From the NCBI RefSeq assembly GCF_022014595.1, contig NZ_CP091740.1:4080200-4144199 (forward strand): a DNA stretch of 64,000 nucleotides, read 5' to 3'. Shown piece after piece: positions 8,703-38,163 of the stretch. How positions within the stretch are numbered: the first letter of the stretch is position 1; the number at the start of each line of letters is the position of its first letter. Under the pieces are notes generated by a model, which had not been told where the DNA came from, did not search any database, and worked only from the letters and a program-made list of their open reading frames with translations. Position numbers and translations under genes: made by a program. The DNA is from Solitalea lacus (lineage in GTDB: Bacteria > Bacteroidota > Bacteroidia > Sphingobacteriales > Sphingobacteriaceae).

Positions 8703-10067
8703 TTAATTCCTTAAATGCCAAGCTTTGAGTTTTGTAAATACTCGAAAGCCCTGATGCGAAAGTGTGGCTCCAATACCCGAATGTTTGCGACCACTCCATG
8801 GCAGTGCCGCACTCACACGATCGCAGCAATTCCAATAGCCGGTTCCAGCATTTATTTGCTCCAATATTTTCTTTGCTCGTCCTTCATCACTGGAATAAAC
8901 GGCTGCCGTAAGCCCATATTGGGTATCCTGCATAAGCGTTAAAGCTTCCGCATCGTCTTTCACTTTCATGATGCCGATAACAGGGCCAAAACTTTCTTCC
9001 TGCATTATTTTCATAGTATTAGTCACTCCAATTAAAACCGTTGGTTCAAAATAATATCCCTTTCCTTCACAACGTTTACCCCCTGTTAATACTGTAGCAC
9101 CTTTGGCGAGTGCATCGTCAATCTGATGCTCCAAAATGGCTATTTGATCCTTGCGGGTTAATGGCCCGATATACACACCTTGCCCAGTAGGCTCTCCCAC
9201 CTTCCACGATTGAACTTCTTTTAAAAATGCCTCTACATATTGATCATAAATTTTTTCATGTACGTAGATACGCTCCACAGCACAACAGCTCTGACCGTTA
9301 TTATAGAATGCCCCATCAGCTGTTGCCTCCGCCACAGCAATAATATCCTGTACATCATCTGCTACATAAAGTGGATCTTTTCCTCCTAATTCCAATTGAC
9401 AAGGCACCATTTTAGAGGCTACACATTCATAAATATGTTTTCCGGTTTTATAAGATCCGGTAAAAAAGTAGCCGTCAAACTCCATATCCAGCAATAGCTC
9501 TCCTGTATCTTTTCCGCCAATGGCCACCTGAAAAACATCTTCGGGAACCCCTGCTTTTTTTAATAATTTCTCTATTTGTAACCCAGTTAGAGAGGCATAC
9601 TCAGAAGGCTTATACATAACTACATTGCCCGCCAATAACGCTGGAACAAAAACATTAACTCCTACCAGATAAGGGTAATTCCAAGCTGATATATTACAAA
9701 CAACACCCAAAGGCTCGTACGATATTTTTTCTATTAGACCTTCTTCAAAGGTCATAAGTTCATCTGTTAAATACTTTTCAGCATTCTTGAGCATCCAATC
9801 AATTCGACGTCTTGCTCCTTTTAGCTCATTTCGGGATTGTTGCATAGGTTTTCCCACTTCAGCAGTAAGGATGCCTGCTAAGTGTTCGCTATCATTTTCC
9901 AGCAAATTGCAAAAATTACGCAGTAGCTCAATCCGAACTTCCAAAGGCTTCTGGGCCCAACTAGGTTGTGCTGCTTGTAAGAGCTGAAATTTTATCGATA
10001 GGGAATCCTGGCCGTCTTCTTTTAGTGTAGTTATGATTTCTTCGGAGGCTGGGTTAATGACATTCAT
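8703..10067 (-). CDS. NAD(P)+-dependent aldehyde dehydrogenase
   Basis: A 454-residue ALDH-superfamily enzyme. The general-base Glu is in LELGGK (about E226), the catalytic Cys in NNGQSC (about C261), the cofactor segment PWNYP-like SAWNYPY near residues 127-133, and EESFGPV near 345. It is the fifth gene of the operon starting with the permease at 14689. In the pathway proposed here it would oxidise gamma-glutamyl-acetaldehyde (a gamma-glutamylated aminoaldehyde) to gamma-glutamylglycine, the position PuuC holds in the putrescine pathway. The fold and activity class are clear; the substrate is inferred only from neighbours. It is slightly shorter than typical 480-500-residue ALDHs but complete at both ends. 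Confidence 0.93.
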   Translation of the reverse strand: MNVINPASEEIITTLKEDGQDSLSIKFQLLQAAQPSWAQKPLEVRIELLRNFCNLLENDSEHLAGILTAEVGKPMQQSRNELKGARRRIDWMLKNAEKYLTDELMTFEEGLIEKISYEPLGVVCNISAWNYPYLVGVNVFVPALLAGNVVMYKPSEYASLTGLQIEKLLKKAGVPEDVFQVAIGGKDTGELLLDMEFDGYFFTGSYKTGKHIYECVASKMVPCQLELGGKDPLYVADDVQDIIAVAEATADGAFYNNGQSCCAVERIYVHEKIYDQYVEAFLKEVQSWKVGEPTGQGVYIGPLTRKDQIAILEHQIDDALAKGATVLTGGKRCEGKGYYFEPTVLIGVTNTMKIMQEESFGPVIGIMKVKDDAEALTLMQDTQYGLTAAVYSSDEGRAKKILEQINAGTGYWNCCDRVSAALPWSGRKHSGIGATLSHQGFRVFTKLKAWHLRN

Positions 10068-10092
10068 TGGAGTTATTTTGGGAATTTGTTCT

Positions 10093-10800
10093 TTAATATT
10101 TTCTCTTCCATGTTCTTACAGCCTCCATAAACGCGTTCAGTATATTCCTTACAAACGGACTTTGCTGATCTTGCATCCTTTCAGGGTGCCATTGAACCAA
10201 ACACAAAAATGAACTGTTTTCGGGACTGCTTCGCTCCAATGCTTCAGCTATACCGTCAAGCGAGTGAGCACTCACCACCAATCCATAACCTATTTTATCT
10301 ACGCACTGATGGTGATTACTGTTGATGAGTCCTTCGTCTGCCTGTAATATTCTTCTCAACCAGGAATGTGAATCAATATTCACCGGATGATACTTATCAT
10401 TTCCATTGGCCAATTTTGCATGACTAGGCTTACCCCAGGAGGGAATATCAGGAATAAGTGTCCCTCCGAAAAAAACATTGCCTATTTGCATCCCCCGACA
10501 AATCCCCAGCACAGGTAATGCATTTTGCTGAGAATATTCTAATAATTTCAATTCAAACTCATCACGCGCCTCGTTCATGTCATCGGCATAGCAATACTCA
10601 AGATTTTCGGGCTTATTATAAAACCGAGGGTTCACGTCCTCTCCTCCTGTAAGCAGCAGTCCATCACATTTTTTAATAGCATCAAAATCTCCGACACCAA
10701 GTTTCAACACTTCAACTGTATCGGCGTAGGATATAACCCAGTTGCTATAATTACTATACTTACTGCAATCAGTAATACCTATGGTTAGTTTATCTTTCAA
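10093..10800 (-). CDS. Class-I amidotransferase-like gamma-glutamyl hydrolase (peptidase C26, PuuD-like)
   Basis: A 235-residue stand-alone glutaminase-fold hydrolase. The nucleophile elbow is GICRGMQ (Cys about 101), and the His/Glu pair is in WHPE (about H205 and E207). The N-terminal GGEDVNPRFY segment is characteristic of the peptidase C26 group, which includes gamma-glutamyl-GABA hydrolase PuuD. With no synthetase domain it should cleave gamma-glutamyl amides. In this operon the expected last step is hydrolysis of gamma-glutamylglycine into glutamate and glycine. It sits 25 bases upstream of the aldehyde dehydrogenase gene and 30 bases downstream of the alcohol dehydrogenase gene. Substrate is inferred from context. 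Confidence 0.88.
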   Translation of the reverse strand: MKDKLTIGITDCSKYSNYSNWVISYADTVEVLKLGVGDFDAIKKCDGLLLTGGEDVNPRFYNKPENLEYCYADDMNEARDEFELKLLEYSQQNALPVLGICRGMQIGNVFFGGTLIPDIPSWGKPSHAKLANGNDKYHPVNIDSHSWLRRILQADEGLINSNHHQCVDKIGYGLVVSAHSLDGIAEALERSSPENSSFLCLVQWHPERMQDQQSPFVRNILNAFMEAVRTWKRKY

Positions 10801-10830
10801 ATCATGGAATTTAAATGAAGAGATTAACGT

Positions 10831-11979
10831 TTATAATGCTTTTAAATATAAAGACTTAAAATCTTCCCTTGTAACTGGTTTAGGATTATTAGGATGGGCA
10901 AAGTCAGCAGCAGCCAGATCTGACAGGGTTTCAATATGAACATCCTTTACTCCAATTTCCCGAAGCTTATGAGGGATATTGATCTTCGAGTTTAAATCAA
11001 ACAAATAGCTCACTACTGCCTCGCCGGTTTCTTCTTTTAACTCCAGAGCTCGTGCAATTCTCCTGAATTTATCTTCAAACCCTTTAATATTAAACTCCAT
11101 GCCGTAGGGAATGTTTACCGCATTGGCTAAACCATGATGAGTATCTAACAAGGACGAAAGTGGATGCGCCAGAGAGTGTACCACTCCTAACCCTTTTTGA
11201 AAGGCTATGGCTCCCATCATAGAGGCCATCATCATTTTACTTCGTGATTCCAAATCAGGCTTATTAGTTGCCTTTTCGAGCGATTCCTTGATCAGGTAAA
11301 TACCTTCCAAGGCTATACCTTCACAAATCGGATGTGGATTTTTAGCAAGAAAAGCTTCCATATTATGCGTAAGAGCATCCATACCGGTAGCAGCCGTAAC
11401 AAAGGCCGGCAATTCCAAGGTTAAGATTGGGTCTGCAAACACAACTTTAGCCATTAGTTTAGGAGAAAACAGAATCCTTTTTTGATGCGTTTCATCATCG
11501 GCAATAATGGCACTTCTGCCTACCTCACTACCGGTACCTGCAGTAGTGGGAATTGCGATAAAATGGGGCACTTCATTGGTTACATAGATATCACCGCCAA
11601 TTAAATCATCGTATTTGAACAGGTCTTCACGATGATTAATGCGCAAGACAATTGCTCTGGCAATATCTAATGAAGCCCCACCTCCTATTCCTACAATAGA
11701 ATCTCTCTCCGTATGATCCCAAACATCAGTTCCTTTATAAACATCAGACTTTACAGGGTTTTTATGTGTATCACAAAATACTTCCACTGCAATGGAGTTT
11801 CGTCTTAAATCTTCTAAGATCTCTTTAAAGAAAGGCAATTGAGCCACTATCGCATCTGTAACAATCAAGGGTTTCTTCAAACCATGATATTGAAGATAGG
11901 CAGGAAGCTCCTTTACAGCGCCTGCACCAAAACGAATGATTGTTGGGAAATTATATTGATATACTTTGTCAAATATCAT
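10831..11979 (-). CDS. Iron-containing (group III) alcohol dehydrogenase
   Basis: A 382-residue enzyme of the Fe-ADH family. It shows the NAD-binding GGGASLD (about 99-105), the TAGTGSE motif (about 146-152), and a full metal set: D201 and H205 in GMDALTHNMEAF, H268 in VVHSLAHPL, and H282 in DTHHG. It is in mid-operon between the glutamine-synthetase-like ligase and the amidase. Its presence is what separates this operon from the Puu pathway, where an FAD amine oxidase (PuuB) stands in this position. An alcohol dehydrogenase fits a gamma-glutamylated amino alcohol such as gamma-glutamylethanolamide. Family certain; substrate inferred. Confidence 0.93.
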   Translation of the reverse strand: MIFDKVYQYNFPTIIRFGAGAVKELPAYLQYHGLKKPLIVTDAIVAQLPFFKEILEDLRRNSIAVEVFCDTHKNPVKSDVYKGTDVWDHTERDSIVGIGGGASLDIARAIVLRINHREDLFKYDDLIGGDIYVTNEVPHFIAIPTTAGTGSEVGRSAIIADDETHQKRILFSPKLMAKVVFADPILTLELPAFVTAATGMDALTHNMEAFLAKNPHPICEGIALEGIYLIKESLEKATNKPDLESRSKMMMASMMGAIAFQKGLGVVHSLAHPLSSLLDTHHGLANAVNIPYGMEFNIKGFEDKFRRIARALELKEETGEAVVSYLFDLNSKINIPHKLREIGVKDVHIETLSDLAAADFAHPNNPKPVTREDFKSLYLKAL

Positions 11980-12009
11980 AAATGAAAGTTTTGAGCTTAT
12001 AGTGTTATG

Positions 12010-13368
12010 TTATATAATCTCCAAATACCTCTTGAGCTCCCAATCAGTCACTGCTTTTGCAAATTGGCGGCACTCCCACTCCCTTGTTGATGTAAAATGC
12101 TCAACAAATGCCTCGCCAAACAATTCTTTGGCAAGCGTTGATTGTTTCATTTGTTGAGTAGCCTCTTCTAAACTTCGAGGCATTGTTCCATTAGAGTAAT
12201 CACGGTAACCATTACCAATTGTGGCAGGCTGAGCAAGTATAAGTTGCTTTCTTACACCATATAGACCTGAGGCCAGACATGCAGCCATCGCCAAATAAGG
12301 GTTCACATCTGAACCTACTACTCGCGTTTCAAGACGAGTAGATTTTTTATTAAGAGGAAGAGCCCGCAGGGCTACCGTACGATTATCAACCGACCAGGTT
12401 ACCGTGGTTGGAGCCCAGGCTCCCTCCACCAAACGTTTATAACTATTTATAGTGGGTGCTACCATAGGTAAAATCTGGGGTAGACAGTATAGTTGTCCGG
12501 CAATATAGCTTCTAAATAGAGGGCTCATTTTCTGCGGATCATGTTCATCATAAAAAAGATTCTGTTGTGACTCTTTGTCCCATAAACTCTGATGAACATG
12601 ACCACTACAACCAGGCAAATTTTCATTCAATTTGGCAATGAAAGTGGCGATGATCCCATGCTTATACCCAATTTCCTTAACTGCCGTTTTAAATAATGCA
12701 GCCCGGTCTGCAGCCTCTAAAATATCGGTGTACAGAATAGCTGCTTCATACACTCCAGGTCCTGTTTCGGTATGCAGACCCTCAATAGGCACATCAAAGC
12801 ATTTTAGCAGTTCAAACAAGTCGGTCATAAATGCATTCTTCAATGAGCTTCGAAGAATCGAATAACCAAACATCCCAGGACTAAGTGATTTAAGATTTCT
12901 GAAGCCTTTCTCATGCAAACTTGACGGAGTTTCCTCAAAATTGAACCACTCAAATTCCTGAGAAAAGTAGGGTTTAAACCCTTCCTGTTCACATTGCTCC
13001 ATCACTTTTCGTAATAATTGCCGAGGGCACGCAATAGAGGGGGCATCCTTTTCATCGATAAAATCACCCAAAAAAAAAGGCACATCATTTTCCCAGGGGA
13101 TCTTTCTAAAGGTTTTAAGGTCGAGTTTTACGGCTGCATCCGGATAGCCTGTGTGCCAGCCTGTAAACTTTACATTGTCATAGGCTGCATCATTCATATC
13201 CCAGCCAAAAGTAACATCACAAAAACCCAGACGACCTTCTACCAATGATAAAAATTTATCCGTAGCAACGTATTTCCCTCTTAAAACTCCATCTATATCG
13301 GTAACTGCTAATTTTACTTTTCCTGACGAATGTTGGCTAACGTATTCCAGTATTTGCTGTTTTGTCAT
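12010..13368 (-). CDS. Glutamine-synthetase-like gamma-glutamyl-amine ligase (PuuA / GlnA4-like)
   Basis: A roughly 452-residue glutamine synthetase family protein. Visible GS landmarks are YFSQEFEWF near residue 145 (metal-binding glutamates), GLHTETGPGVYEA near 200, the ATP/ammonium region NLPGCSGHVHQSL near 250, and RVVGSDVNPYLAMAA near 370. Overall it resembles the gamma-glutamylputrescine/gamma-glutamylethanolamide synthetases rather than housekeeping GlnA. The start is taken at the ATG at 13368, six bases inside an earlier TTG; it overlaps the permease gene by about 30 bases, suggesting translational coupling. Expected reaction: ATP-dependent joining of glutamate to the amine taken up by the permease, inferred to be ethanolamine. 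Confidence 0.9.
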   Translation of the reverse strand: MTKQQILEYVSQHSSGKVKLAVTDIDGVLRGKYVATDKFLSLVEGRLGFCDVTFGWDMNDAAYDNVKFTGWHTGYPDAAVKLDLKTFRKIPWENDVPFFLGDFIDEKDAPSIACPRQLLRKVMEQCEQEGFKPYFSQEFEWFNFEETPSSLHEKGFRNLKSLSPGMFGYSILRSSLKNAFMTDLFELLKCFDVPIEGLHTETGPGVYEAAILYTDILEAADRAALFKTAVKEIGYKHGIIATFIAKLNENLPGCSGHVHQSLWDKESQQNLFYDEHDPQKMSPLFRSYIAGQLYCLPQILPMVAPTINSYKRLVEGAWAPTTVTWSVDNRTVALRALPLNKKSTRLETRVVGSDVNPYLAMAACLASGLYGVRKQLILAQPATIGNGYRDYSNGTMPRSLEEATQQMKQSTLAKELFGEAFVEHFTSTREWECRQFAKAVTDWELKRYLEII

Positions 13369-14689
13369 AAGCAAGAGTGTTACGGGTCTTAAAAATCTTA
13401 AATAACAGGAAGGCGAAGGCTAGTATGCTAAAATATACCGTGCCCAACTTAAGGTTGAAAATGAACATGGCAACAAGCGAAACAAGAGCAATAATCAAAG
13501 CCATGAGGGGAAAAAAAGGATAAAAAGGCACCTTAAAAGGTCGATTTAGTTCCGGCTGCTTTTTCCTTAAAACTATCAATGAAATCATGGAAATGATATA
13601 AAGGGTTAAGGCTCCAAAAACAGAAATGATAATAATCTCTCCGGTTTTACCTGATAAAAGCGCCAACATTCCAATAATCATATTGCCCAGAAGGGCATTA
13701 GCAGGAGTATGGAAGCGTTCAGAAATTGCACCTAAAAACGGAGGTAAGTTCCTCACCCTACCCATTTCATAGGTAGAACGTCCGGCAGCAAGAATTAACC
13801 CATGAAATGAAGCGATGAGCCCAAACAATCCTATGGCTATCAGTAAATGAAACATTGGATGATTATTGCCTGTAATTTTCGCTAAGGCCAAAGGCAATGG
13901 AGAATCGGAGGTCTCACTGCTGCTGCCATTTTTGAAAACAATGGTTTCCCATCCGGCAACCCCTATGGAAGAAACAAATACGAGCACACACAGAACAACA
14001 AGTGTAAATATTGCCCATCCAAAACCTTTTACGATGTCACGCTGAGGATTTTGCGTTTCTTCAGCCACATTTGCCACTCCTTCAATACCTAAAAAGAACC
14101 AGATAGCAAAAGGAATAGCTGCAAAGGCTCCTGATGCCCCGTTAGGAAACGCATTGTGAAGCAAGTTATCTGTTTGAAACCTTGGTGCGGTAATTCCGGT
14201 AAATAATAGCAATTCACCAACAGCCAATATGGTTATAATGGTTTCAAATGATGCTGCAGCCTTAATTCCGTAAATATTTAGTGCAGTAAATACAAGGTAG
14301 ATAACAAAGGCATTGGCTAAAATAGGTATTTGAGGATAAATAGCATTGAAATAGGCTCCAATGGCAAAGGCAATGGCAGGAGGTGCAAAAGTGAATTCAA
14401 CTATTTGGGCAATCCCTGCAATAAACCCAACATTTGTACCAAGCGCTTTATTTGCATAATCAAAAGCTCCACCAGCTTTTGGAATGGCACAGGTTAACTC
14501 GGTATAGCTGAATGTAAAAGTAAGGTACATGACCATAATGACTATGGTGGCCAGAGCCATGCCCAATGTACCTCCTTTCTCCAGGCCTAGGTTCCAGCCA
14601 AAATACATACCCGAAATAACATAACCAACGCCTAATCCCCATAGCATAAAAGGACTCAACGTTTTTTGCAAGCCGTTTTTTGTACCCAT
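13337..14689 (-). CDS. APC-family permease, ethanolamine-permease-like
   Basis: A 450-residue inner-membrane transporter with about 12 hydrophobic segments. The first membrane region reads LGVGYVISGMYFGWNLGL (residues about 17-34) followed by a GG and later IPKAGGAFDYANKALG (about 70-85), the arrangement recalled from the ethanolamine permease group (TIGR00908-type) of the amino acid-polyamine-organocation superfamily. It is the first gene of a five-gene minus-strand operon, and its 3' end overlaps the ligase gene. Import of ethanolamine is the best guess; a related amino alcohol or amino acid is possible. Confidence 0.87.
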   Translation of the reverse strand: MGTKNGLQKTLSPFMLWGLGVGYVISGMYFGWNLGLEKGGTLGMALATIVIMVMYLTFTFSYTELTCAIPKAGGAFDYANKALGTNVGFIAGIAQIVEFTFAPPAIAFAIGAYFNAIYPQIPILANAFVIYLVFTALNIYGIKAAASFETIITILAVGELLLFTGITAPRFQTDNLLHNAFPNGASGAFAAIPFAIWFFLGIEGVANVAEETQNPQRDIVKGFGWAIFTLVVLCVLVFVSSIGVAGWETIVFKNGSSSETSDSPLPLALAKITGNNHPMFHLLIAIGLFGLIASFHGLILAAGRSTYEMGRVRNLPPFLGAISERFHTPANALLGNMIIGMLALLSGKTGEIIIISVFGALTLYIISMISLIVLRKKQPELNRPFKVPFYPFFPLMALIIALVSLVAMFIFNLKLGTVYFSILAFAFLLFKIFKTRNTLAYDKTANTGIR

Positions 14690-14784: not shown

Positions 14785-14826
14785 AAAATAAAACAGCCAC
14801 GATAAGAACAAACTTTATCGCGGCTG
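14785..14826 (-). terminator. Terminator after phospholipase C gene
   Basis: CAGCCaCGATAA (14794-14805) pairs with TTATCGcGGCTG (14815-14826) with one internal mismatch; the minus strand continues into TTTTATTTTG. It separates the phospholipase gene from the permease operon. Confidence 0.75.
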
Positions 14827-14845
14827 CCGTTAATATGTTTTAAAT

Positions 14846-17404
14846 TTACACTAGCATACCCATTGCAGGATCACTATAACTCCCTTGTCCGGTTTCAACC
14901 CGTCCGGCATAGCGTTGTTCAAACGTATCAAACCCTTCAATTTTGACACTGAAATCATACCAGCCATGACTATTACTCAAATCAATCGTAATTAGGGCTT
15001 TCCCTTTAAATGATCCGGCAGCATCAACCACCTGTACTTTCTCCTTCTGCTTGTAAGCATTATCAATTATGAATACTTTGTATTTACGTTTGTTATCTAA
15101 ATTGCTAATCTTAAGATCGATATTTCCGGTAAGCTTTTTAGTATTGAACCTGTTTGGATTATAATCGGCTATAATCTCAATTTCCGGATCGGAGCTATTA
15201 CCCTTAAACTCCCGGAAAAATCCGTTAGGCCCATAAACACGAAGGAAATAATTTTCGTTTTCGAAATTATTTAACAACCAGGAGTAGTTCAAGAATTCTC
15301 CTGCCTTGGCAGCAAAGGCCCACGTTTGAACAGTATCAAATCCTTGATTTTTTAATGAACGATATTTGCCTGGAGCGTATACATTAAATGGCGCTCCTGC
15401 TGATTTAGGCCCAAACACATCCGTTTTGGCAGCAAATTGCAACTCAAAACTTTTTTTATCCTTACTAAGTTTGCCTCCCGCATACAATTGATAAGGCAAC
15501 GAACATGAAGCTTTTACGCCCTTTTCCTGTCTCGGCATAAAATCCGTTGACAAAGGATTCTTATTACCTTGCGCAATTTCTACCGCAGTAAGCTGTTTGA
15601 ATCCCTTTGGAACGTCTTTAAACTGGGAGTTATTGATACTTTCAAGAAAAGGTTCTTTTTCGACAGAAGCCGGAAGATCTATTTTTTCTCCGTTATACGG
15701 TCTAAAAACGGAAGTTAAATCTCCGCAAACTGCTCTACGCCATGAGCTAATATTAGTCTCTTCAATTTTTTTACCGGTTTTATTGCTTAAGAATTCCTCA
15801 AGGAATTGAAGCGTTGAGGTATGATCAAAAACTTCTGAATTTACCCAGCCACCACGCGTCCAAGGTGAAGCTACAATAAATGGAATTCGATATCCTAGCC
15901 CTATCGGACTTTGACGGGCATACTTTTCCGATCGACCATCACGAAGCTCCTGGTCCTTAGTTACATAATCTACACTTGCATCAATTCCCTTTGAGGTTGC
16001 TCCGCTTTCGGGCCTGGCAGGATCAGGAGCAACAAATGGAGGAATGTGGTCGAAGGATCCATCGTTTTCGTCGTAAGTAAGAATAAAAATGGTTTTCTTC
16101 CACACTTCAGGATTTTGAGCAAGAATATCCATTACCTCAGAAAGATACCAAGCTCCAAACCATGGCGAACTCGGATGATCTGAAAAATGTTGCGGAGCCA
16201 CCAACCACGAAACAGTAGGCAGTTTTCCGTTTTTTACATCTTCTCTAAACTGGTGTAACACATCACCCTTGGGCACTTTCATTTGCCTTTTCGTACCAGC
16301 CTCATCATAATTTAAGGTTAAAAGTTGATGATAATCAGGGTCTCCCGAATTGGTCACAAAAGCCTTTTCATGCAAATTTTTCTGTTTTTGCGAAAGCTTT
16401 TCAAACTCATCTGAATTGTATTTAGTTATTGTTTCTTTCGCTTTTATCAAAGACACTTTCTTTTGTTCCAGTTTCTTTTTGGCCGCCTCTGCCTCTTTTC
16501 CCAACAGGGAAGAAATTTTCGCTTCCATTACCTCTATTTCTCCAGGAAGCTGTATAATTCTCTTTTTTAGATAGTTAATATGTACTGCTGAAAAACGGAC
16601 ATTATATTGCGAAAACCATTCAATTGGATTGTCGGTAAAGTTGGCCAGCCAGACATCTTCATCGTCATCAAAACCAGCACCTACACTTATTTCATTCTGA
16701 TATACTTTCCAGGAAACACCATGTTCTTCCAATCGCTCGGGAAAAGTTGTCCAATTGGCTTCTTTATCGTAATCAACATCAGAATTCCACACATTGGCTT
16801 TGGCGCCTGTGTTTTGTTTATCACGAATTGTACCTGTCCAGAAATAGAGCCGGTTAGGAGTAGTTCCTGTTAACGATGAACAAAAATGCTGATCGCAAAC
16901 GGTAAAAGCATCGGCTAAAGCATAATAAAAAGGAATATCTTCCCTGTTATAGTAGCCAAGAGTCATTGGAATGTCGGGATAATTACCGGATTGCTTTGCT
17001 ACAAGCCATTGATCATATTTACCATCATTACGTGCATCCACCTGGTCGCCCCAAGAGTGCGGAAGCGAACTCATCCAGGTAGCTTTAGAAGCTTTTATAT
17101 CCATTCGGAAGGGAACATACGTTCTTCCTTTTTGATCCTTTTGAAACCATACCAGGTTCTTATCAGGTAAGGTAATTGCCCGGGGGTCATTAAACCCACG
17201 AACGCCTTTTAACGAACCAAAACAATGGTCGAAAGAGCGATTCTCCTGCATCAACAACACCACATGTTCGGCATCCATAAATGTACTACCTGCCTTGGGA
17301 TCAATTGCAAGTGCTTTTTGAATGGATGGAGGCAATACACTAAATATCCCGGCCGCACCAGAAAGCATTGCCGCCTTTTTAATAAATTCTCTTCTAGTAT
17401 CCAT
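14846..17404 (-). CDS. Phospholipase C, phosphocholine-specific type, Tat-exported
   Basis: A protein of about 852 residues in the bacterial phospholipase C / acid phosphatase superfamily, which releases phosphorylated head groups from phosphatidylcholine and related lipids. The N-terminus has the twin-arginine motif TRREFIKK followed by a hydrophobic stretch, so it is exported folded. The metal-site signature QENRSFDHCFGSLKGVRGF follows, with further blocks HFCSSLTGTTPNR and TYDENDGSFDHIPPF. The last 200 residues look like the paired C-terminal PLC beta domains. A charged coiled-coil insert near residues 280-360 is usual in the family. The ATG at 17404 is preferred because an earlier ATG at 17434 adds ten residues before the Tat motif. 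It lies upstream of, and in line with, the ethanolamine-type operon. Confidence 0.93.
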   Translation of the reverse strand: MDTRREFIKKAAMLSGAAGIFSVLPPSIQKALAIDPKAGSTFMDAEHVVLLMQENRSFDHCFGSLKGVRGFNDPRAITLPDKNLVWFQKDQKGRTYVPFRMDIKASKATWMSSLPHSWGDQVDARNDGKYDQWLVAKQSGNYPDIPMTLGYYNREDIPFYYALADAFTVCDQHFCSSLTGTTPNRLYFWTGTIRDKQNTGAKANVWNSDVDYDKEANWTTFPERLEEHGVSWKVYQNEISVGAGFDDDEDVWLANFTDNPIEWFSQYNVRFSAVHINYLKKRIIQLPGEIEVMEAKISSLLGKEAEAAKKKLEQKKVSLIKAKETITKYNSDEFEKLSQKQKNLHEKAFVTNSGDPDYHQLLTLNYDEAGTKRQMKVPKGDVLHQFREDVKNGKLPTVSWLVAPQHFSDHPSSPWFGAWYLSEVMDILAQNPEVWKKTIFILTYDENDGSFDHIPPFVAPDPARPESGATSKGIDASVDYVTKDQELRDGRSEKYARQSPIGLGYRIPFIVASPWTRGGWVNSEVFDHTSTLQFLEEFLSNKTGKKIEETNISSWRRAVCGDLTSVFRPYNGEKIDLPASVEKEPFLESINNSQFKDVPKGFKQLTAVEIAQGNKNPLSTDFMPRQEKGVKASCSLPYQLYAGGKLSKDKKSFELQFAAKTDVFGPKSAGAPFNVYAPGKYRSLKNQGFDTVQTWAFAAKAGEFLNYSWLLNNFENENYFLRVYGPNGFFREFKGNSSDPEIEIIADYNPNRFNTKKLTGNIDLKISNLDNKRKYKVFIIDNAYKQKEKVQVVDAAGSFKGKALITIDLSNSHGWYDFSVKIEGFDTFEQRYAGRVETGQGSYSDPAMGMLV

Positions 17405-17490
17405 TTTTAAAGTAGAGTTTCCTTCAATTTCCATTTATTAAAAGAAAACAGTTTTCAATTAAATTCTTTTCTGTCCAATTATCAATAAAA

Positions 17491-37990: not shown

Positions 37991-38068
37991 GGGAGATTAG
38001 CTCAGCTGGTTCAGAGCACCTGCCTTACAAGCAGGGGGTCACTGGTTCGAACCCAGTATCTCCCACCA
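37991..38068 (+). tRNA. tRNA-Val (anticodon TAC), CCA encoded
   Basis: Cloverleaf: acceptor GGGAGAT/ATCTCCC, D arm with AGCTCAGCTGGTTCAGAGC, anticodon stem CCTGC/GCAGG with loop CTTACAA, T arm with GGTTCGAACCC, discriminator A, then encoded CCA to 38068. TAC reads GUA (and GUG) valine codons. Confidence 0.95.
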
Positions 38069-38081
38069 AAAAACTTCTTTT

Positions 38082-38156
38082 GGAAGATTAGCTCAGCTGG
38101 TTCAGAGCACCTGCCTTACAAGCAGGGGGTCACTGGTTCGAACCCAGTATCTTCCA
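38082..38156 (+). tRNA. tRNA-Val (anticodon TAC), second tandem copy
   Basis: It is identical to the preceding copy except for the acceptor pair at positions 3:70, where G-C has become A-T (GGAAGAT/ATCTTCC), a compensatory double change that preserves pairing. It is followed by CTA, so CCA must be added after transcription. The two copies are 13 bases apart including the first copy's CCA. Confidence 0.93.
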
Positions 38157-38163
38157 CTAAACA

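Follow-up and report, generated by a model that had tools for sequence, protein, structure and literature searches.

A five-gene operon of Solitalea lacus that probably breaks down ethanolamine by gamma-glutamylation, with a phospholipase C gene as its neighbour

A route that joins ethanolamine, a constituent of membrane lipids, to glutamate before oxidizing it, and that includes a gamma-glutamylethanolamide dehydrogenase, has been published (PMC10132767; PMC6529630). Phaeobacter on phosphorylethanolamine raises the proteins of one operon, namely a gamma-glutamylglycine amidohydrolase, EtoX, an ethanolamine gamma-glutamylase, and gamma-glutamylacetaldehyde-type and gamma-glutamylethanolamide dehydrogenases; the legend of this operon also lists RpiR and EtoVW, and the genes are described as closely related to the demonstrated ethanolamine pathway of Chromohalobacter (C. 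salexigens) and Agrobacterium (A. tumefaciens) (PMC10132767, its reference 32, Vetting et al.). In Streptomyces coelicolor, GlnA4 is a gamma-glutamylethanolamide synthetase in vitro with proposed downstream intermediates, and the pathway legend names an aldehyde dehydrogenase (ALDH), a putative transporter, a glutamine amidotransferase and a short-chain dehydrogenase; according to the same paper, the C. salexigens glutamylation pathway had earlier been predicted in silico (PMC6529630). Here we compare with these systems a locus of Solitalea lacus, lying in a stretch of 64,000 nucleotides (hereafter the window; positions 4,080,200–4,144,199 of a single-contig genome of 4.40 Mb). Five open reading frames (ORFs), all on the minus strand, form one run at 8703–14689 of the window, and we propose, with a probability of roughly 0.8 given the sequence comparisons below, that this operon breaks down ethanolamine by gamma-glutamylation.

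The run encodes an ethanolamine permease of the amino-acid permease superfamily (13337–14689), a glutamine synthetase (GS)-like ligase (12010–13374; PF00120, with a TTG start in the ORF list), an iron-dependent alcohol dehydrogenase (Fe-ADH; 10831–11979; PF00465, PF25137), a C26 or class-I glutamine-amidotransferase-like hydrolase (10093–10800; PF07722, 151.4 bits) and an ALDH (8703–10067; PF00171, 434.9 bits). From permease to ALDH the intergenic distances are -38, 30, 30 and 25 bases, while 255 bases separate the run from the next downstream gene and 156 bases from the next upstream ORF; the genes flanking the locus we take, by recognition, to be ppc and atpG. In the proposed pathway, ethanolamine would enter through the amino-acid-permease-type carrier, and the ligase, a putative gamma-glutamylethanolamide synthetase, would join it to glutamate using ATP. 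The Fe-ADH would oxidize the alcohol end of gamma-glutamylethanolamide to the aldehyde, gamma-glutamylacetaldehyde, the ALDH would convert this to gamma-glutamylglycine, and the hydrolase would free glycine and regenerate glutamate. The sequence-only reading of this locus had described the same tight operon, likened its permease to ethanolamine permeases and drawn the same chain of intermediates. The ORF positions and the family assignment by Pfam and NCBIfam bore out the first two points, and the chain remains the best reading in view of the permease score, the grouping of the two dehydrogenases and the missing ammonium-site Glu of the ligase, with the qualification that the pathway idea was, as said above, already published.

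The Phaeobacter Eto operon, like the window, brings together a GS-like ligase, an ALDH and a gamma-glutamylethanolamide dehydrogenase, but it has the tripartite ATP-independent periplasmic (TRAP) carrier EtoVWX where the window has an amino-acid-type permease, and it includes an RpiR gene, which does not adjoin the window operon. The term "iron-containing" is absent from PMC10132767. Plasmid 1 of Paracoccus denitrificans PD1222 (locus L111) carries, in the order of the published Phaeobacter operon, genes for RpiR, an N-formylglutamate amidohydrolase, three TRAP components, a GS, an ALDH and an annotated iron-containing ADH, and we infer that the published Phaeobacter alcohol step is of the iron-containing ADH type. 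This Eto-order cluster shares tree groups with the window for both ADH and ALDH, but has its N-formylglutamate amidohydrolase where the window has a C26 hydrolase, and the window ligase belongs to another lineage than the Eto/TRAP-cluster ligase. The GlnA4 pathway shares its proposed intermediates with the route suggested here, a likeness taken from its published description. There, the alcohol step is given to a predicted (short-chain) dehydrogenase instead of an Fe-ADH and hydrolysis to a member of the formylglutamate amidohydrolase family instead of a C26 hydrolase, and the pathway has an EpuRI regulator. The Escherichia coli Puu pathway follows the same logic of glutamylation, oxidation and hydrolysis, and its hydrolase is of the same superfamily with an aligned catalytic triad, but it uses the amine oxidase PuuB, of which there is none among the five genes of the window.

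The permease exceeds the cut-off of TIGR00908, "ethanolamine permease" (451.4 versus 381.75 bits), and is the only protein in the genome to do so, with five weaker matches. The operon Fe-ADH is likewise the only one over its cut-off genome-wide (one further weak match), and one of the seven ALDHs of the genome lies in the operon. EutB had no match genome-wide while the E. coli control was positive, and on this absence we reject the Eut pathway; no search was made for EutC or shell proteins, so that the earlier statement that EutBC and microcompartment genes are lacking is upheld for EutB.

The search of genomes for the same gene order that the sequence-only reading had called for shows that the order recurs, more than chance would explain. 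We refer to permease, ligase, ADH, C26 hydrolase and ALDH in this order as context A. It is contiguous and on one strand in 50 of the 56 other same-family loci (the set being 57 of 301 family genomes, those with a permease at E <= 1e-150); the six exceptions have a gene missing, are interrupted or are cut by a contig end. Context A is also contiguous in 27 of 78 anchored named loci, drawn from the best 80 of 593 contigs (two of the 80 lacked an anchor), and in 8 of 57 ligase neighbourhoods from 17 relatives and 40 phylum-draw loci, a set that includes many loci of another context. As the locus sets overlap and include near-identical genomes, these counts are not independent. The ligase query itself had matches in 19 of 60 relatives (counting its own genome) and in 220 of 392 genomes of the phylum draw, most of the latter weak. 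A second arrangement, context B, consists of a ligase, a 346-aa protein and a HAD hydrolase and was contiguous in 34 of the 57 and 15 of the 78 loci.

The ligase stays below the cut-offs of GlnA (210.9 versus 429.15 bits) and of type III GS. It retains E. coli GlnA residues E130, E132, E213, E221, H270, R340 and R360 (the D51 column, uncertain in alignment, was left out), but its Trp320 aligns with Glu328, the Glu of the ammonium site; PMC6529630, which discusses the GS ammonium site, numbers this residue E327 (Salmonella type). The same position holds Tyr in PuuA, Phe in the Paracoccus ligase, and Trp in IpuC, the Legionella ligase and two context-B ligases. W320 is invariant in alignments A1 (13 operon-type ligases) and A3 (14 ligases, in which L175 represents context B). 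The ligase was 28–29% identical to 5dm3, the Csal_0679 structure, in Foldseek alignments. In a tree of 144 ligase rows made by a quick method, the closest rows came from same-genus genomes and named Pedobacter, and the window ligase lay in a large lineage with the Bacteroidota ligases of both contexts. Neither context is monophyletic (at least nine changes for A, two for B). Outside the Bacteroidota A/B ligases fall those of Legionella lytica, Burkholderia vietnamiensis, Pseudorhizobium and Rhodobacteraceae M382, and two Paracoccus ligases, L038 and L102–L106 make up an eight-row group separate from the window ligase.

None of the listed equivalog cut-offs was reached by the ligase, ADH, hydrolase or ALDH (25 of 43 families were shown for the ALDH). 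D201, H205, H268 and H282 of the ADH align with FucO D195, H199, H262 and H276, C101, H205 and E207 of the hydrolase with PuuD C114, H222 and E224, and Cys261 of the ALDH with PuuC Cys302. By their family roles these are, respectively, metal ligands, the catalytic triad and a catalytic residue. In an ADH tree of 40 hand-chosen rows (7 outgroup), 30 of 33 linked ADHs, including those of the window and Paracoccus, formed one group (support 97/94) that excluded FucO, EutG, YiaY and four plasmid Fe-ADHs not adjoining a GS; within it, a subgroup of seven included Paracoccus, Legionella, Photobacterium, Shinella, L102 and L103. In an ALDH tree of 34 hand-chosen rows (10 outgroup, several on long branches), all 24 chosen cluster ALDHs, that of M382 among them, formed one group (91/94) apart from PuuC, PatD, BetB, GabD, AldB and five of six other ALDHs of this genome. 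In Legionella lytica a ligase from the window's part of the tree is paired with an ADH that falls in the Paracoccus subgroup, and Photobacterium L218 shows the same pairing by ligase identity (46%) and the ADH tree, being absent from the ligase tree. These comparisons point to one downstream chemistry served by two GS-like ligase lineages that are only distantly related. The hydrolase and ALDH are fused in one ORF in L067 and L133, and in L131 the fusion is divided between two overlapping frames.

We favour ethanolamine because the permease passes its cut-off, the five-gene order is conserved, both dehydrogenases fall in groups with their Paracoccus counterparts and a Trp replaces the ammonium-site Glu, and because of the Legionella and Photobacterium pairings, the C26–ALDH fusions and the genome-wide absence of EutB. 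Several findings weigh against this choice. The Trp would exclude ammonium without naming ethanolamine, as it also occurs in context B and IpuC, and the ligase is only about 35% identical to the TRAP-cluster type. The ligase alone leaves the substrate unfixed, because the Pseudorhizobium and M382 ligases sit in clusters with polyamine-type ATP-binding cassette (ABC) transporters and aminotransferases. Three linked ADHs (L191–L193) group with the four unlinked plasmid ADHs (83/75), the ALDH of L108 falls within the cluster-ALDH group, both dehydrogenase trees have hand-chosen rows and few outgroups, and the window holds no evidence of an inducer or regulator. An ADH and ALDH pair suits any primary amino alcohol, so the same chemistry might act on another small one (e.g. 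3-aminopropanol, alaninol or serinol) and yield the matching amino acid in place of glycine; the ligase shares 38.7% identity with a plasmid-encoded protein whose gene is annotated as ipuC (gamma-glutamylisopropylamide synthetase) and lies in a cluster with a short-chain dehydrogenase/reductase, ALDHs and two putative glutamine amidotransferases. We consider this unlikely, given that the permease passes the ethanolamine-permease cut-off, that a phospholipase gene recurs nearby (see below) and points to phospholipid head groups, and that the five genes include no P450 or ferredoxin, unlike the ipuC cluster.

The sequence-only reading had framed the locus as a Puu operon with PuuB swapped for an ADH, and the ligase, ALDH and hydrolase do share broad superfamilies with PuuA, PuuC and PuuD. 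This framing did not survive: the ligase is far under the PuuA (GGputSyn) equivalog cut-off (183.1 versus 650 bits), as is the ALDH under that of PuuC (244 versus 850 bits), and the hydrolase is weakly PuuD-like (48.8 bits versus a cut-off of 266), a score that also counts against the ethanolamine reading. With no PuuB-like oxidase among the five genes and the ALDH apart from PuuC in the tree, a polyamine operon is very improbable, and on the equivalog cut-offs and the ALDH tree we reject Puu itself. A genuine, ammonium-using glutamine synthetase is less credible still; the ligase has the GS fold, its model matching glutamine synthetases best in Foldseek, but on its scores under the GlnA and type III GS cut-offs and the missing ammonium-site Glu we reject this reading.

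The next ORF upstream of the operon, overlooked earlier, encodes on the same strand a phospholipase C (PC-PLC; 14846–17434), the single copy in the genome, over the TIGR03396 cut-off (797 versus 580.25 bits) and with a twin-arginine (Tat)-type N-terminus that contains TRREFIKKAAML, read by eye. The gap between it and the permease holds a terminator-like hairpin with a T-rich tail on the minus strand (14786–14828, ends placed by eye); the segment 14780–14845 folds at -22.1 kcal/mol (z -4.9), and none of 200 shuffles folded as well. The hairpin was missed by a terminator pattern scan with a loop limit of 8, which was itself uninformative (10 found versus 9.0 expected), as was a scan for sigma-70-type promoters (25 versus 24.9). 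A shared transcript is disfavoured by this hairpin, and the PLC is probably its own transcription unit. Counting that of the window, 7 of the 57 family genomes have a PLC close to the operon. In L025, L256, L258 and L261 it comes right after the ALDH, on the same strand. In L265 and L266 it is the last gene of a divergent run made up of sigma factor, FecR-like, SusC, SusD and PLC genes (assigned by Pfam from L265 and from the sigma factor of L225, which belongs to the same cluster), with an Lrp/AsnC gene adjoining the permease. By chance we would expect about 0.32 genomes with a PLC within 20 kb and about 0.04 with one directly adjacent, against 7 and 5 seen, figures that are rough as copy numbers were entered by hand and the genomes are kin. 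In a PLC tree of 28 rows the operon-linked PLCs fall into three lineages, which suggests that the proximity arose more than once. In 9 of 56 loci a SusC more than 40% identical to that of L024, followed by SusD, is found upstream of the permease at a distance of two or three genes, and in L024 (PF03767) and L025 (73% identical) an acid phosphatase with a lipoprotein signal, recognized by eye, stands between SusD and permease.

From this pattern we tentatively suggest, at somewhat less than even odds, that in Sphingobacteriaceae the operon forms the inner section of a locus for using phospholipid head groups, comparable, for lipids, to a polysaccharide utilisation locus. In such a locus a SusCD-type pair and a Tat-type PLC (in G017 and G021 also an acid phosphatase lipoprotein) would feed ethanolamine into the permease and the gamma-glutamyl route, and the window would hold a reduced form, made up of PLC and operon. 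The neighbouring PC-PLC, together with a phosphatase, would be one source of ethanolamine, released from phospholipid head groups. It is less likely than not, though still credible, that the PLC is unrelated to the operon and shares only its insertion site. A same-genus genome with no ligase or permease match (G002) has the PLC alone at this site, G001 and G003 have the operon there and no PC-PLC in the genome, the hairpin parts the PLC from the permease, and for 50 of the 57 permease loci the stretch read contains no PLC, although contig ends cut some of these loci. Against mere coincidence of site, six other family genomes combine PLC and operon in two other arrangements, with PLCs of two further lineages, where chance would place it within 20 kb in about 0.3 genomes. 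Co-occurrence itself says little, because PC-PLC is present in 214 of 301 family genomes, and the lipid link is not general, because the neighbours of ten other operon-type loci are by Pfam mostly unrelated in function (symporter, peptidase, histidine kinases, glycosidases, helicase). The L024 acid phosphatase had no match in this genome, in a search without a positive control, which also counts against the lipid link.

Flavobacterium Pus clusters link SusCD-type outer-membrane pairs to phosphodiesterases or phosphatases (PMC8115612), as L025, L261 and L265 do; in the accessible portion of that paper's main text the word "ethanolamine" is absent, whereas the L025, L261 and L265 type joins SusCD, PLC and the ethanolamine operon. 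The chemistry is known, and what looks new is the Bacteroidota arrangement, its own ligase lineage and the repeated link to PLC and SusCD, for none of which we found a description among the listed matches from open-licence PMC papers. If the proposal holds, Pedobacter, Chitinophaga, Sphingobacterium and others would gain an ethanolamine route without an ammonia-lyase, one tied in Bacteroidota to the scavenging of lipid head groups.

Some further observations concern the wider ligase lineage. Context B, as at L034:10763–11797 and relatives (alignment A2, e.g. L161:10483–11520), has a ligase of the window's lineage, with a GSII gene alongside in some loci. Its conserved 346-aa protein matched no Pfam family at E 0.001 in the two members scanned, and its structural model (mean pLDDT 72.9) gave Foldseek matches to kinases of the APH/choline-kinase fold, including an aminopropanol kinase from a microcompartment and an ethanolamine kinase (E ~1e-6 to 1e-5, TM ~0.4–0.5, rmsd ~10); context B is possibly a kinase–phosphatase branch for an amino alcohol. 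The ligases of L107 and L108, about 45% identical to that of the window, neighbour polyamine-type ABC transporters, aminotransferases and N,N-dimethylformamidase-like genes, perhaps reflecting another substrate for this lineage. The five-gene order is complete in L136 and L153 and partial in L164, L165, L168 and L185, whose titles name Beijerinckiaceae, Bdellovibrionales, Bacteriovoracaceae, Myxococcota, Betaproteobacteria and Acidimicrobiales; these loci reflect either transfer or mis-binned contigs. The Lrp/AsnC-family gene at L265:10880–11344, divergent from and adjoining the permease, belongs to a cluster found in ten family loci and is a candidate operon regulator, though none adjoins the operon in the window. 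Elsewhere in the window, two tRNA-Val genes with identical anticodon lie side by side at 37991–38157.

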